Shown piece by piece: positions 27,945 to 54,277 of a stretch of 64,000 bases of DNA. The position numbers and the translations under genes are program-made. The stretch covers positions 1,488,001 through 1,552,000 of the forward strand of contig NZ_CP081297.1 of assembly GCF_019711355.1 (NCBI RefSeq), read 5' to 3'. The notes below the pieces were generated by a model. The model made no database searches. It worked only from the letters and a program-made list of their open reading frames with translations, and had not been told where the DNA came from. The stretch's first letter is position 1; each line of letters starts with the position of its first letter. This DNA is from Qipengyuania psychrotolerans (GTDB lineage Bacteria; Pseudomonadota; Alphaproteobacteria; Sphingomonadales; Sphingomonadaceae).

Positions 27945-28415
27945 TTACCAGCGGTAGTGGCTGAAAGCGCGGTTCGCATCCGCCATGCGGTGCGTATCTT
28001 CGCGCTTCTTCACCGCGTTGCCGCGATTGTTGGAAGCATCCATCAGCTCGCCCGAGAGACGGGCAGCCATGGTGGTTTCCGGACGACCGCGCGCAGCGCT
28101 GATCAGCCAGCGAATGGCCAGAGCCTGGGCACGCTCGGGGCGAACCTCGACCGGCACCTGGTACGTGGCACCGCCAACGCGGCGGCTACGAACTTCGACC
28201 TGCGGTGCAATGTTCTGAAGCGCGGTGTGGAACACCTCGACCGGGTTCGCCTTGGCCTTTTCCTCGACCACGTCGAGTGCGGTATAGACGATACCTTCAG
28301 CGACGGCCTTCTTGCCGTCATACATCAGGTTGTTCATGAATTTCGAAAGGATCTGATCGTTAAACTTCGGATCAGGCAGGATTTCCCGTTTCTCGGGACG
28401 ACGACGACGACTCAT
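27945..28415 (-). CDS. rpsG: 30S ribosomal protein S7
   Basis: The 156-residue product has the S7 signature [20 protein letters not shown] near the N-terminus and [20 protein letters not shown] in the middle. It nucleates assembly of the 30S head. It lies 24 nt after rpsL. Confidence 0.98.
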
Positions 28416-28439
28416 TGATTATCTCCTAAGTCCCGTGGA

Positions 28440-28811
28440 TTACTTCGGACGCTTCGCGCCGTACTTCGAACGCGATTTGCGGCGATCCTTGACGCCCTGC
28501 GTATCGAGCACGCCGCGAAGGACGTGGTAACGAACGCCGGGAAGGTCGCGCACACGGCCGCCGCGGATGAGCACAACGCTGTGCTCCTGCAGGTTGTGGC
28601 CTTCGCCCGGGATGTAGGAGATGACTTCGCGCTGGTTGGTCAGGCGAACCTTGGCAACCTTACGCAGAGCCGAGTTCGGCTTCTTCGGAGTGGTCGTGTA
28701 AACACGTGTGCAAACGCCGCGCTTCTGCGGGTTCTGCTCCATCGCAGGGACCTTGGACTTGGCCTTCTGCGGAACGCGGCCCTTGCGGACCAGCTGGTTA
28801 ATCGTCGGCAT
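28440..28811 (-). CDS. rpsL: 30S ribosomal protein S12 with Arg88
   Basis: The 123-residue product starts [16 protein letters not shown] and has the decoding loop [12 protein letters not shown] with Lys43 and Lys44 intact. At residue 88 the sequence is [13 protein letters not shown], with Arg (codon CGC at 28550-28548) where Escherichia coli has Lys88. Replacement of Lys88 by Arg is a known streptomycin-resistance change in several bacteria, so natural low streptomycin sensitivity is possible. It is the first gene of the str segment; the start is the ATG at 28811. Confidence 0.98.
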
Positions 28812-29178
28812 AGAATTCTTTCTCTTCACCGTATGCCCGACCCGTAAGGGTCAAAGCGTGGAAGGTGACGACTAGTGACTGCGGGTGGTGGTTCGGTTCG
28901 GGCGAACGCCGCGCTAAACGCCGCAAAAACGGGCACCTGGGCGGTTTGATCGCACGAGCCTGAAACGCTCCACCCACGGCCACACGGCCACCGGGTTACT
29001 TTGACGGATGCCCCGAGCGAGTTTCCCCGCTGCAATAGAAAAGAGCCTTATCGCGTCAGCGACAGGCTCCCGGGACAGGTCCGGCAATGTTCAGCTCTAT
29101 CTGACCGGTGTTGGACGAATCCTACACTGGATAGGCGCGCAGATAGGGGGAATGGGGGGATTGGTCAAGGGAGAGGGA
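28812..29178. other. non-coding region upstream of rpsL
   Basis: No gene is visible. From the cassette side it first holds an intrinsic terminator (29036-29069). The ~220 nt up to rpsL must contain the main str promoter on the minus strand; a candidate is TTGACC followed by TACGGT at a short 15-nt spacing close to rpsL, which is weak. GTTCGCCCGAAC near 28900-28911 is a short dyad. Confidence 0.45.
29036..29069 (-). terminator. intrinsic terminator of the DUF4062 cassette
   Basis: On the minus strand GAGCCT pairs with AGGCTC and TCGC pairs with GCGA around a TGAC loop, followed by TTTTCTAT. It lies about 110 nt after the last cassette gene and insulates rpsL from it. Confidence 0.7.
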
Positions 29179-29664
29179 CTAATCCTCAACGTCCTCAACT
29201 GTCGAACGCTCAAAAACAACGATCTTCTCGTTCCCATCTTGCAGGATGGCCTGCCAGCTAGTGAAACCGACCTTCTCACTGTGAGCCCCAGCAGTAGAGT
29301 TGTGTGACCGCCTAAGGGGAACGAGTTCGACGCTGGTCCACGGCCCCTCTTTGATGTTGGCCACCAAATTGGGCTGATCTCCACTAATCACAATCGAACC
29401 CAACTTAACTCCATCGGACGAGACAGAATAGATGGAACTTTGATCCACGTATATATCGACCCCCTCGACAACCGCACCCTTCCAATTCTCAGCCAAAGAG
29501 GACTGGAAAGCATTGAAAGCATGAGGTCCATCGAGTAAAATTGCAACTGTTGGGTCCGCATCGGCAACCAAGAAAGTCTGATCATATTTTCCAGATGGAA
29601 TGACAATCGCCAAGCCCTCGACTTTGGATAGGAGCTTCGCTTGCAGCGCAGATACAGGGATCAT
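29179..29664 (-). CDS. unknown protein, third gene of the DUF4062 cassette
   Basis: I do not recognise this 161-residue family. It looks like a soluble, beta-rich, acidic protein without signal peptide or membrane segment. Visible stretches include GLAIVIPSGKYDQTFLVAD, VEGVDIYVDQSSIYSV and a C-terminal acidic end (STVEDVED). Its ATG overlaps the stop of the DUF4062 gene by 4 nt (ATGA), so it is translationally coupled and may act as a partner, effector or immunity-type protein; none of these is shown by the sequence. Codon use is AT-richer than in the adjacent ribosomal genes. Confidence 0.65.
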   Translation of the reverse strand: MIPVSALQAKLLSKVEGLAIVIPSGKYDQTFLVADADPTVAILLDGPHAFNAFQSSLAENWKGAVVEGVDIYVDQSSIYSVSSDGVKLGSIVISGDQPNLVANIKEGPWTSVELVPLRRSHNSTAGAHSEKVGFTSWQAILQDGNEKIVVFERSTVEDVED

Positions 29665-30794
29665 TCCGAACCTCTTCGTTCACCCGCAGCTTCCCTCTGT
29701 AGCAGTGCTGCAAAATCTTCCGCCATCATACTGGCGTCATAGCCAATTGCTGCTCGGGGAATGTCGGCTGGACTCAGTGTCACAGGTCGAGGCTCTCCAC
29801 CTGCAAAGAACGCAGCATGCGTGACCGAATTTGGGCTCGCCGCATGCTCCGCACGCGTCCTCCATGCCGCATATTCCAAATCACTCGCACGCATTGCGAT
29901 TACAAATCGCGAGAGCTTATGGGCACTGTCGATTAGGTCGAGTACATCTGATGCGAGGAGAAAGCAGCGCCTAACTGCCTCTTCAACATCTTCAATTATC
30001 ACACATGGTATGCCGCTATTCGCCTGAACGATCCCAAGTGTAATAATCAGGTCCCCTTGTTCGGAAATCGCGAATTGCCTTCCGTCATCTTGGCGGAAAT
30101 GAAGCAATCCACCCAATTTGCGGGTCTTTATTCCTAGGGTTCTATCGAAAATGCTGTGCGGTGCAAAAAGAAGCATCTTCGAGATTTCAGCCTCCAACTG
30201 CTCGCTTTCCAGCTCGCGCGGACGCAAGATTTGGGCTTCTGGCCCGCCAGCCAAGGCTATCGTCAACTGCCCATTGAATCCCCTTCCCCTATGGCCCCTG
30301 TCGATCTGGCACATTTGAATAGCCCGCTTGAAAAGACTGTCCGGGTTCACAGGGGTTTTAGCCAGACTTAGCTCGTACTGGTGTATCGCTCGAGTGACCT
30401 CCGACCTTAACTCCTCGGCGTCGACAAACCCCCTTCGATGCCGACCCTTGTCCCAAGATTCGACGACGGAAATAAAGGCCTCCTGCGCAGACTCTCGCTC
30501 CACCCCCTGCTGCACGAACACCAGAATGGGCTTGACGCCCTTCGCTTCCAAAAACTCCTCGTGTGTCGGCGCAACGTCCGCTGGAGGGAGAGCTACCCCA
30601 TACCTCTCACCGAGCAATAGCACCACCAAGTCGGCATCGCGTACTCCGCTTAAGCAGGCGACGCGAGATGGGGCATCGGACGCCGGAAATTCTTCAGCGC
30701 GTATGACTTCATGCCCTAAAGAACGAATGGCTGTATCGACAGCATCTCGATACTGCTCAAATCCCGAAATGACCGAGCTGATGAATATCCTCAT
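29661..30794 (-). CDS. DUF4062 domain protein, possible signalling/defence protein
   Basis: The 377-residue protein begins with the DUF4062 pattern: MRIFISSVISGFEQYRDAVD, then [23 protein letters not shown] and KPILVFVQQG. This Rossmann-like domain resembles TIR/SEFIR folds and often precedes NTPase or repeat domains in defence- or signalling-like genes (family knowledge). The remainder (about 150-377) has no domain I recognise; it includes a GRQFAISEQGDLIITLGIV strand region and a helical C-terminus. No P-loop is seen, so it is not a STAND NTPase. It starts 1 nt after the zinc-ribbon gene stop and overlaps the next gene by 4 nt. Composition suggests horizontal acquisition; the function is unknown. 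Confidence 0.75.
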   Translation of the reverse strand: MRIFISSVISGFEQYRDAVDTAIRSLGHEVIRAEEFPASDAPSRVACLSGVRDADLVVLLLGERYGVALPPADVAPTHEEFLEAKGVKPILVFVQQGVERESAQEAFISVVESWDKGRHRRGFVDAEELRSEVTRAIHQYELSLAKTPVNPDSLFKRAIQMCQIDRGHRGRGFNGQLTIALAGGPEAQILRPRELESEQLEAEISKMLLFAPHSIFDRTLGIKTRKLGGLLHFRQDDGRQFAISEQGDLIITLGIVQANSGIPCVIIEDVEEAVRRCFLLASDVLDLIDSAHKLSRFVIAMRASDLEYAAWRTRAEHAASPNSVTHAAFFAGGEPRPVTLSPADIPRAAIGYDASMMAEDFAALLQREAAGERRGSE

Positions 30795-30795
30795 T

Positions 30796-30960
30796 TTACT
30801 CCCATCCCTCGCGCCAATCTGCCCGTCTACATTTAGGGCAGCGCAGTTGGCTACGAGGCCTATCGTGACGCTCGTATTCCAGATCCTCTTCTAGCGTGAG
30901 CACCTCGGCTTCGAACCTTTCTCCGCAATTGAGGCATCGATACTTTTTCGTAATCGGCAT
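30796..30960 (-). CDS. small zinc-ribbon protein, first gene of the cassette
   Basis: A 54-residue reading frame starting MPITKKYRCLNCGERFEAEV and ending CPKCRRADWREGWE. Two CxxC pairs (Cys9/Cys12 and Cys41/Cys44) 28 residues apart form a typical zinc ribbon. The stop TAA lies one base before the DUF4062 ATG, and its last codons supply the GGGATGGGAG ribosome-binding site of that gene. The upstream context is AAAGAAAC directly before ATG, a poor Shine-Dalgarno; TTGGAA-16-TATTAA lies just upstream, which would give an almost leaderless mRNA. The role is unknown; a DNA/RNA-binding or regulatory partner of the DUF4062 protein is conceivable. Confidence 0.7.
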   Translation of the reverse strand: MPITKKYRCLNCGERFEAEVLTLEEDLEYERHDRPRSQLRCPKCRRADWREGWE

Positions 30961-31152
30961 GTTTCTTTAATAGCAAGCATCAGAGGTATTCCAACTCCAT
31001 TTTGTACACATTTTGTCCACTGAATGTTTCTAGCGCTGTACCGCCCCATCTTGCACAGAAGCGTTTTGAGCACCGGGCGCACCGCATAGCCGCCACATAA
31101 TCTCGGGCGGGCGACTACCGATGTCCCGGCTTCACCGGTTCTGCTTCGCAAT

Positions 31153-31190
31153 GCCTCGCCTGTGGCTCGGTGATTTCGCCGGATAGAAAG
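31153..31190. repeat. 38-bp direct repeat, copy 1
   Basis: Begins GCCTCGCCTGTGGCTCGGTG and ends GGATAGAAAG. It matches copy 2 at 31296-31333 in 35 of 38 positions. Both copies lie in the same orientation, 143 bp apart, without a gene between. Confidence 0.75.
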
Positions 31191-31295
31191 CATTTTCCTA
31201 CTTCGCAGTTTTTTGTTTTCGTCCCTCAAACGCCGGGCGGAGCGCGTCCGCGCTCCTTGGCTTCGCGGCATAAGCCGCGGCGGGCGGTCGCCCTT

Positions 31296-31333
31296 GCCTC
31301 GCCTGCGGCTCGGTGATTTCGCCAGATAGAGAG
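31296..31333. repeat. 38-bp direct repeat, copy 2
   Basis: Differs from copy 1 at three positions. Its end (GATAGAGAGGG region) provides the GAGAGGG that looks like the ribosome-binding site for the GTG-start gene at 31344. It may belong to an intergenic repeat family of this genome. Confidence 0.75.
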
Positions 31334-31343
31334 GGACCATTTA

Positions 31344-32030
31344 GTGTCGGACCACCCCGCCCCCACCCGCAAAATCGCCCGCCAGGCCACCTCTGCCGTC
31401 GCGCATGTCGCGCCCGAGCCGGGGGAGGACGATCCGCTGCTCGCCTTCGCGCCCTTCATCCATGAAGCGCCGCGGCGCAATTCGATTACGCCGGACTTAC
31501 AGCGCCGCTTCGTGAGCACGCTCGCGGCCACGGGCATCGTCACGCAGGCGGCGCGCTCCATCGGCAAGAGCATGGAGGCGCTTTACAAGCTGCGGGCGCG
31601 CACCGGGGCCGAGGGGTTTGCGGCCGCCTGGGATGCGGCGCTGGAGCGCGGGGTGCAGCGGCTGGAGGATTGCGCGCTCGAGCGGGCATTGCAGGGCACG
31701 CCCACGCCGATCGTTTCGGCCGGTAAGATGCTGGGCACGTGGGACAAGCCCGACAACACGCTGCTGCGCTTCCTCCTCCAGCACCGCCTGCCCGAAAAAT
31801 ACGGCGTGCGGCGCATCGAAAAGGGGCATCCGCTCTACGAGAGCATCCGCGCCGAGGTGCTGGCGGAAATCGAGGCGAACAAGCCCGACCATGACGAGGT
31901 AATCGAGAGCATCAACCGCAAGCTTACCGTCATGCGCCGCCGCGGCATCCTGCTCGGCCGTACCCAGCCAAGCGAGGACGAGAAGCGCAAGATCGCCGAA
32001 GACCGCAAGGCTTTCTTCGCGGGCTGCTGA
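31344..32030 (+). CDS. helix-turn-helix protein resembling phage terminase small subunits
   Basis: 228 residues from a GTG start with GAGAGGG upstream. The region ITPDLQRRFVSTLAATGIVT followed by QAARSIGKSMEALYKLRAR (about 55-93) is a helix-turn-helix of the kind found in phage terminase small subunits and transposase N-termini. A following AAWDAALERGVQRLEDCALE and FLLQHRLPEKYG complete the pattern. No large terminase or other phage gene is near, so this is an orphan and its role is unclear. It converges on copB with a 54-nt gap. Confidence 0.6.
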   Translation: MSDHPAPTRKIARQATSAVAHVAPEPGEDDPLLAFAPFIHEAPRRNSITPDLQRRFVSTLAATGIVTQAARSIGKSMEALYKLRARTGAEGFAAAWDAALERGVQRLEDCALERALQGTPTPIVSAGKMLGTWDKPDNTLLRFLLQHRLPEKYGVRRIEKGHPLYESIRAEVLAEIEANKPDHDEVIESINRKLTVMRRRGILLGRTQPSEDEKRKIAEDRKAFFAGC

Positions 32031-52354: not shown

Positions 52355-54277
52355 GTGGCCGATATTTTCATTTCTTATACACGAGCAGATCGCGCAAAGA
52401 TCGAAAGACTCGCGGGAACTCTCGCGACCAGCGGGTATGATGTCTGGTGGGATCGTGACATCACTGGAGGCTCCGAATTCAGCGCTGTCATTGAACGCGA
52501 ACTCATCGCCGCCAAGACCGTCGTAGTAGCTTGGTCGGAGAACTCGCTTCGCTCTCATTGGGTTCGCGACGAAGCCGAATTTGCCAGAACTGGTGAGAAG
52601 CTAGTGCCGATTTCGCTAGACGGCGTCCTTCCTCCACTTGGTTTCAGGCAGATACACGTTTTGGCATTTGAAGGTTGGAATGGTGACCGTTCGCATTCTT
52701 CCTTTCGCGAGCTGTTGGCTTCGCTCGGCAAAACTCCCTCGCAAGGCACCCGGTCGCGTTGCGAAGAGTTCAGCCCAAAGGCGCCTGGTGGCAGCGCTTC
52801 GATCGCAGTGCTCCCCTTCACCAACATGTCATCGGACCCTGAACAGGAGTACTTTTCCGACGGGATAGCCGAAGACATTCTCAACGCCTTGTCCAGCTCG
52901 ACGGACTTGCTCGTCGCTGGCAGGACCTCCTGCTTTGCGCTCAAAGGCAAGAATGCCGATGTGAAAGACATTGGCGCCCAGCTAAATGTCGATCATGTTC
53001 TCGATGGCTCGGTTAGGAAACAAGGCAATCGTGTCCGCATTACCGCACAGCTCATTCGGGCGAGTGACGGGTTTCAATTGTGGTCAGAGCAATATGATGG
53101 GACGCTCGAAGATGTCTTTGATCTACAAGACCGAATTTCCGGGTCGATCGTCGAACAATTACAGGCAGTTCTGACCAGCACTCAAGATGGGCGTGTGGCA
53201 GAACAACTGACTGACAATCAGGAAGCCTATGATTTATTTTTACGTGCTCGAGCATTGGTCAACAAGGTCTGGGGTGATGACACGCTTACACGCGCCGTGA
53301 AGATTTTGGAGCAAACTGTCGAGTTGGATCCGCAGTTTGTGAGCGCGTGGGAGTTGTTGGCACGCGCGCACTTTCTCGTCCCACAGTTCATCTCAAACAA
53401 TGATGAGAAATTGAATTACGCTGCAAGCGAAAAGGCCGCTCGCCGAGCGCTTGACCTGGACCCCAGTTCCGATCTCGCACAGTACCTTGTGCAGGCCGCG
53501 AGTTGGGACGGGCAGGACATTGGACTATTTCTTGAACGAATAGCACGTCCCGTCGACCGAGCGACCGCCGACGAGTTGGTCTTCGTGGGTGGACTTACGC
53601 AGCTCATCTTGGGCCGAGTATCAGCGGCACTGCCAAAGTTTCGGGACGCATTAAATCGCGATCCTTTGTCCGGACGCATGGCCTATAATCTTGCAGAATG
53701 TCACCTAGAACTATCGATGTTCGAGCGCGCCGAAGAATTGTTTAATCAGTCGATCGAGAATGGCTTTAACGCCGGTTTCTTTGGATTAGCCAAAATTAGA
53801 ATGATTGAAGGGAAGCCGGACGAAGCAATTAATATGATGATGTCTGCCTACGAAGCGATAGGGGAAGGCATTTATCCTCACATGCGCTCGCGAGAACAGT
53901 GGGAGTTGGTTGGACGGGCTGCTTATGCGGGTGATCAGGAAGCTCAAGCAAAGGTCGAAGCATCGATCGTCGCAATGGATGCAGAGGGCTCGCTGCCTGT
54001 AAACTATTTGGTTTTGACGGTGCTGATTTGCGAGCAAAGCGCCGAGACCTTTTTTCGTCTCTACAAGAAGAAGAGTTCTCCTGCGATGCACTTTTGCATT
54101 GCTCATTCCTTTTGGCAGCCGTCAGATCGCGCCCACGGTTTTCGTCAGCACCCTGGATTCAAGCCATTCGCTGAGGAAATCGGTCTTGTAGATGCTTGGC
54201 AAAAATTTGGATGGCCCGATCTCGCGAGACCAAACCCCGGCACCGATGGCTCAAATGGAGCCTGGACGATCGATTAA
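52355..54277 (+). CDS. TIR - TolB-like - TPR protein
   Basis: The 640-residue protein starts with a TIR_2 domain (IFISYTRADRAKIERLAGTL, residues 4-23; DVWWDRDI, 29-36; SHWVRDEAEFA, 67-77, where Glu73 fits the catalytic glutamate of NAD-cleaving TIRs). Residues about 147-245 form a TolB/FlgO-like domain (SIAVLPFTNMSSDPEQEYFS, then VDHVLDGSVRKQGNRVRITA) usually seen in CadC- or cyclase-type regulators. The rest is TPR-like (AVKILEQTVELDPQFVSAWE, AAEKAARRALDLDP-like, ERAEELFNQSIENGFNAG). No membrane segment is clear. It has a GTG start with GGAG, stands alone and is AT-richer than its neighbours, suggesting transfer. It could be a signalling NADase or scaffold. Confidence 0.8.
   Translation: MADIFISYTRADRAKIERLAGTLATSGYDVWWDRDITGGSEFSAVIERELIAAKTVVVAWSENSLRSHWVRDEAEFARTGEKLVPISLDGVLPPLGFRQIHVLAFEGWNGDRSHSSFRELLASLGKTPSQGTRSRCEEFSPKAPGGSASIAVLPFTNMSSDPEQEYFSDGIAEDILNALSSSTDLLVAGRTSCFALKGKNADVKDIGAQLNVDHVLDGSVRKQGNRVRITAQLIRASDGFQLWSEQYDGTLEDVFDLQDRISGSIVEQLQAVLTSTQDGRVAEQLTDNQEAYDLFLRARALVNKVWGDDTLTRAVKILEQTVELDPQFVSAWELLARAHFLVPQFISNNDEKLNYAASEKAARRALDLDPSSDLAQYLVQAASWDGQDIGLFLERIARPVDRATADELVFVGGLTQLILGRVSAALPKFRDALNRDPLSGRMAYNLAECHLELSMFERAEELFNQSIENGFNAGFFGLAKIRMIEGKPDEAINMMMSAYEAIGEGIYPHMRSREQWELVGRAAYAGDQEAQAKVEASIVAMDAEGSLPVNYLVLTVLICEQSAETFFRLYKKKSSPAMHFCIAHSFWQPSDRAHGFRQHPGFKPFAEEIGLVDAWQKFGWPDLARPNPGTDGSNGAWTID

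Follow-up and report, generated by a model that had tools for sequence, protein, structure and literature searches.

The window analysed here is the whole 64,000-nucleotide (nt) stretch of the Qipengyuania psychrotolerans genome, which consists of one contig of 2,743,956 bases. Just upstream of rpsL, in the str operon, and co-directional with it, lie three tightly packed genes for a zinc-ribbon protein, a protein with a DUF4062 domain and a 161-amino-acid (aa) partner. This three-gene cassette, which we read as a likely anti-phage module at an insertion hotspot, is bounded and composed as follows (window coordinates).

30796 to 30960, minus strand: zinc ribbon of 54 aa, first gene; an open reading frame (ORF) with a CxxCG...CPxC motif.
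29661 to 30794, minus strand: DUF4062 protein of 377 aa, middle gene; an ORF with a Pfam DUF4062 match.
29179 to 29664, minus strand: 161-aa partner, last gene; an ORF with relatives by plasmid tblastn (2e-11), in 15 GTDB loci and in alignments.
28940 to 29179, minus strand: leader of rpsL (str operon), conserved in blastn against the loci of 29 relatives and forming the left edge of the insertion hotspot.
30961 to 31343, no strand assigned: right flank, an intergenic stretch that contains dispersed repeats and in which the homology to relatives picks up again.

The ORFs and the printed sequence agree with the gene order, sizes and junctions given in an earlier note on this DNA: a 1-nt gap separates the zinc ribbon from the DUF4062 gene, and the DUF4062 and 161-aa genes overlap at an ATGA. 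The guanine-plus-cytosine (GC) content of the cassette is 0.530, whereas the str genes have 0.593 and the window as a whole 0.605, and the GC content at third codon positions (GC3) is 0.54 to 0.56 in the cassette genes and 0.71 to 0.80 in the str genes, in line with the AT-rich composition that the same note had reported. Values as low as that of the cassette occur in 17 of 1245 equally long sliding segments, 12 of them outside the cassette, meaning that its low GC is unusual, not unique. The dedicated terminator that had been proposed does not stand, since two terminator-like sites compare with a chance expectation of 2.6, and the one past the cassette end, at 29064-29049, lies within the rpsL leader sequence common to relatives. 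The flank does bear repeats, an imperfect 39-nt pair at 31152-31190 and 31295-31333, but both copies are part of the flank and not of the cassette; pieces of the flank turn up again once elsewhere in the genome and at several relatives' sites. No Rfam match was found within 28400-31400.

A search of the genus yielded 39 relatives with rpsL, and loci were obtained for 29 of them. In blastn comparisons with these loci, homology upstream of rpsL never crosses position 29179 and ends at 29168-29179 in 22 of the 29; on the far side it resumes at about 31172 in some relatives and from about 31362 in others, continuing into a 228-aa gene. Homology with all 29 loci thus stops at the cassette edge, and the cassette has been acquired, as the earlier note had suggested. 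Larger stretches were opened for 20 of the 29 loci, which were chosen and are not a random sample, the other nine having looked ordinary or like the ones taken. Defence-like cargo is present at 10 of these 20 congener sites, judged from a scan of 19 junction-near proteins from 13 of the 20. Six sites gave strong PADLOC matches: DRT5 (in a gene split by a stop), PifA/KAP NTPases in two genomes (one of them matching over its first half only), PD-Lambda-5 A and B, a CBASS cyclase with a phospholipase, and the ThsB-like TIR protein of genome G017 (genome and locus handles are ours). Four sites gave weaker or more general matches (PDC-S59, PDC-M66A/B, a GajA/AriA-like ATPase and a TIR_2 protein), and the remaining three scanned sites gave no defence match. 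The site upstream of rpsL is, in this genus, a hotspot for defence genes and a compact place to seek new defence systems; no report of it was found in the open-licence literature of PubMed Central (PMC). Other congener sites (e.g., L091 and L097) hold low-GC genes without a clear family match, and part of the rpsL leader is repeated beyond the first gene in L088, L089, L096, L101, L103 and L104, where the second leader piece is possibly a recombination target.

Could the cassette serve the neighbouring str operon instead? A regulatory cassette outside defence, for example one for stress or nucleotide metabolism tied to that operon, would suit genes that lie just upstream of rpsL in the same direction, but none of the 24 sampled congeners has a match to the DUF4062 protein, relatives hold different genes at the same place, the GC content is low, and related modules are carried by plasmids elsewhere, which makes such a role scarcely credible.

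The congener G017 (L093) bears on an anti-phage interpretation of the cassette. Its cargo at the same site is a tightly packed group of a TIR gene, a gene of the 161-aa family and a zinc ribbon, and therefore a TIR form and a DUF4062 form occupy one site in two congeners. The TIR protein is 57% identical to that of NGR234 and matches the PADLOC ThsB model PDLC00420 at 4e-129, the zinc ribbon is 50% identical to that of the window (7e-14), and the 161-family protein shows 28 to 29% identity, at about 1e-9, to Sulfitobacter and Bradyrhizobium members, through which its link to the window's 161-aa protein runs. A fourth gene of G017 (174 aa; L093 984-1508 after reorientation) gives a profile match of borderline strength to the 161-aa family (probability 44, E 2e-4; BLASTP 0.055) and is a possible second copy.

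The 377-aa protein matches PF13271 (DUF4062) at 1.3e-19, over the curated cut-off, and is the sole match to this family in the genome. Its TIR-like domain covers approximately residues 1 to 135 and is followed by a C-terminal region of unassigned fold. According to the main text of a preprint of 2026, DUF4062 is a TIR-like NAD-destroying enzyme (NADase) that forms the bacterial one-protein anti-phage system Swarozyc; the KpSwz protein is autoinhibited until a phage portal activates it, whereupon NAD+ is depleted in an abortive defence, and some DUF4062 genes share an operon with defence genes or with enzymes of various kinds (PMC13174449). The best PDB match of our family profile is KpSwz (PDB 10wc), a weak match at E 0.03 that joins residues 2-134 of the window protein to KpSwz residues 7-148, the TIR-like domain; the C-terminal region showed no sequence match to KpSwz in the profile comparison. 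Glu80 is invariant across five aligned sequences, the window protein included. In the profile match it stands opposite an Ala of the chain deposited for KpSwz; this Ala becomes residue 97 (the preprint's construct is E97A) only by way of a numbering offset of 13 that we infer. With this Ala taken as the mutated E97 of KpSwz, Glu80 is the likely, putative catalytic residue. A pattern search for the catalytic Glu itself required a Glu, so it is not independent evidence, and it missed locus L007. By homology to the published Swarozyc, the DUF4062 protein is probably an NADase.

Four full-length relatives of the DUF4062 protein were identified, with 37 to 43% identity. Residues 287-373 were considered as a shared C-terminal domain and set aside, since the matches in three relatives (L008-L010) were judged to be chance, and a conserved chromosomal gene, presumably NagZ, lies there. 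Viral contigs gave one partial DUF4062 match and none with the alignment; they held no zinc-ribbon relative, and no 161-aa relative was found in viral contigs or phages.

What the two small proteins are can be approached through the company that they keep elsewhere. The zinc ribbon has weak Pfam zinc-ribbon matches, all under the curated cut-offs, and a best PDB match to zinc fingers at E 0.011 that is not worth keeping, while the 161-aa protein has no convincing Pfam, NCBIfam or PADLOC match, and its family's search of PDB gave a best E of 0.54 in one run and nothing in another, with no match worth keeping. The neighbours of the zinc ribbon are consistent, with a TIR or DUF4062 gene adjoining it in all 22 loci found, three of which (plasmid records) were judged from coordinates only and one of which has a TIR remnant as the neighbour. 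This remnant, in NGR234, corresponds by eye to the C-terminal part of the TIR protein. Among 60 genus genomes the zinc-ribbon query is present in five, beside DUF4062 in the window's own genome and beside TIR in the other four; among 385 genomes of the class it is present in two, the own genome and one in which it lies beside TIR; and on plasmids all nine records have it beside a TIR gene or remnant, six of them having been read (L017, L037-L041). Identity to the window's zinc ribbon is 61% in Sphingomonas horti, beside DUF4062, and 46 to 50% in Roseobacter-type loci, beside TIR; one Phaeobacter copy has lost the first Cys. Two TIR and zinc-ribbon pairs, L108 (G019) and L054 (G433), have different genes behind them, one long and presumably resembling that of a RecB-type nuclease and one that by eye encodes a putative membrane protein, and in both a DUF2188-like gene (by eye) lies upstream of the pair.

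The 161-aa family keeps the same company. With the 161-aa protein as query, tblastn found five plasmid records (2e-11 to 7e-6), and in the three of these loci that were opened the relative follows a TIR gene, directly or, in Sulfitobacter, with the zinc ribbon between. A scan of 84,980 GTDB species genomes by a single peptide pattern, which undercounts, gave 111 stretches and 15 relatives; a TIR gene lies upstream in 14 of these 15 loci (with a shorter open TIR frame in L025) and a DUF4062 gene in one, S. horti (L036). The zinc ribbon occupies the interval between the TIR and 161-aa genes in all six Roseobacter-type loci, precedes DUF4062 in S. horti, whose three genes run in the window's order (zinc ribbon first, 161-aa last), and was not seen in the remaining eight. 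In samples of 385 and 299 genomes, the 161-aa family was present only in the window's own genome. The two DUF4062-linked members group in the family tree at 94/86, which is below the tool's star threshold, and on long branches. A 173-aa third gene on Paracoccus, Sulfitobacter and Phaeobacter plasmids was tried as a further member and dropped for want of a significant match. Behind the TIR, zinc-ribbon and 161-aa genes of Roseobacter-type loci stands a large gene (L017:6402-10715; also L022, L025-L027 and L029), with a product of about 1440 to 1460 aa in L017, L022 and L027 and shorter or cut at the locus end elsewhere. Its L017 product (1438 aa) has no Pfam, PADLOC or PDB match, and the gene is a candidate extra component.

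The partners of the DUF4062 protein are therefore related to the partners of canonical TIR proteins. The sister TIR modules occur in rhizobia, roseobacters, others and one congener, and in the Roseobacter type the TIR and zinc-ribbon genes overlap by 8 nt. The sister TIR proteins match the ThsB model PDLC00420 with E-values down to 7e-147, and an alignment of 17 rows shows an invariant Glu78, which we take to be the catalytic Glu, after an invariant Cys74. The earlier note's guess of a defence-type regulator, sensor and effector is well supported, in that the genes or their relatives co-occur elsewhere, the cassette varies between congeners and the site holds known defence systems in other congeners. 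The search for the genes in other genomes, which that note had called for, showed both recurrence of the partners with TIR or DUF4062 and a variable distribution.

The resemblance to ThsB raises the question of whether the cassette is a signal-producing, Thoeris-like system, in which the TIR or DUF4062 protein would make an ADP-ribose-type signal and another product would be the effector. The TIR proteins that have the 161-aa partner do match ThsB, and the DUF4062 protein belongs, like ThsB, to the TIR superfamily; but the whole genome has no match to SIR2_2 (PF13289, for the SIR2-type ThsA, the one kind of Thoeris effector covered), the cassette holds no larger effector, ThsA is not among the 25 families listed out of 343 for the sister loci, and no known effector domain is matched by the 161-aa protein or the zinc ribbon. 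Further, the three window proteins match no PADLOC family at E-values up to 1, and thus no ThsB is present in the cassette. We consider this explanation very unlikely.

Taken with the hotspot and the related partners, we favour, with a probability of roughly 0.7, the interpretation that the cassette is a horizontally acquired, multigene anti-phage NADase module of the abortive-infection kind, with an exchangeable TIR or DUF4062 effector. The DUF4062 protein would be the effector, a TIR-like NADase kept inactive in the resting cell, where the zinc ribbon and the 161-aa protein would form a complex with it as regulator or sensor. Since related partners accompany TIR effectors, the partners most likely hold the effector off or sense infection, and the tight junctions (the 8-nt overlap of the Roseobacter type, the 1-nt gap and ATGA here) favour joint production. 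A phage component might be sensed by the 161-aa protein, by the C-terminal region of the DUF4062 protein or by both, allowing the TIR-like domains to assemble, NAD+ to be destroyed and the cell to die before phage release.

The same parts could instead make a toxin-antitoxin-like stabiliser of plasmids or islands, with the NADase as toxin and one of the partners, zinc ribbon or 161-aa protein, as antitoxin, such that loss of the genes kills the cell. Small genes with tight overlaps around a putative NAD-destroying enzyme would suit this explanation, as would the location of several sister loci on plasmids typed conjugative or mobilizable. Nevertheless, the congeners' site holds known anti-phage systems, three plasmid loci have a DUF4062 relative but neither partner, which is hard to reconcile with an unguarded toxin, and KpSwz is, in the main text of the preprint, autoinhibited and in need of a phage trigger (PMC13174449). 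A stabiliser is thus unlikely.

Several observations weigh against the abortive-infection module all the same. Neither partner accompanies the full-length DUF4062 relatives of Cupriavidus, Rhizobium and Methylobacterium in the flanks read, so a DUF4062 protein of this type can occur without them; in the flanks read at 11 more plasmid TIR loci both are likewise missing, and of the 15 GTDB loci 8 have the 161-aa gene but no zinc ribbon. The window's 161-aa protein gave no tblastn match at 1e-3 to that of G017 and is 17% identical to it in the alignment. The weak match to KpSwz (E 0.03) leaves its auxiliary (sensor) domain uncovered, the 20 opened congener sites were hand-picked from 29, and the role suggested for either partner is drawn solely from adjacency.

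How new would such an anti-phage module be? It had been called undescribed, which no longer applies to a DUF4062 effector alone, already known as an NADase anti-phage effector from the main text of the preprint (PMC13174449), but does apply to the three-gene form, which matched nothing in PADLOC and turned up nowhere in the open-licence PMC literature searched. Like Swarozyc, the window protein has an N-terminal DUF4062 TIR-like domain followed by a C-terminal region, a Glu equivalent to KpSwz E97 (by the inferred offset), a patchy distribution and defence surroundings; unlike it, the cassette comprises three tightly packed genes, whereas Swarozyc is described in that text as a single gene with an HTH/winged portal-binding auxiliary domain (HTH, helix-turn-helix). 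The word "zinc" is absent from the main text (PMC13174449). In the ThsB-like TIR loci a relative of the 161-aa partner is likewise present, joined in the congener and the Roseobacter-type loci by a relative of the zinc ribbon, all in one tight group; there, though, the effector role falls to a canonical TIR_2 protein whose C-terminal domain is a different one, and the genes stand in another order. No shared partners, no swap of TIR for DUF4062 and no antiphage operon of TIR and zinc ribbon were found in the open-licence PMC literature.

We lean, if narrowly, toward a broader proposal, namely, that the two small conserved partners may form a portable sensor or inhibitor platform into which an NADase, TIR or DUF4062, is plugged, making an undescribed multicomponent family. 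No sequence similarity is detectable between the two effector types, and none emerged when the profile of the DUF4062 family was compared with that of the TIR plus C-terminal family. If this is true, TIR and DUF4062 NADases, only recently linked, share one kind of small partner, which would offer a direct route into the control of such NADases, both their restraint and their activation.

The TIR family extends beyond these modules. It is present in 35 plasmid records, 17 of which were opened, and in three of the opened loci (L043, L044 and L051) genes annotated as HTH and reverse transcriptase precede the TIR gene, a retron-like arrangement. They share the TIR plus C-terminal family with the sister modules, but the window cassette has no reverse transcriptase among its three genes and no Rfam match. 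Since the TIR family occurs both behind HTH and reverse transcriptase genes and without partners, the TIR effector is reused elsewhere, and the partners are optional at the family level. Within the window itself, 52364-52717 (plus strand) encodes one of the genome's eight TIR_2 domains, seven of which lie in frames of 576 to 692 aa and one in a frame of 243 aa.
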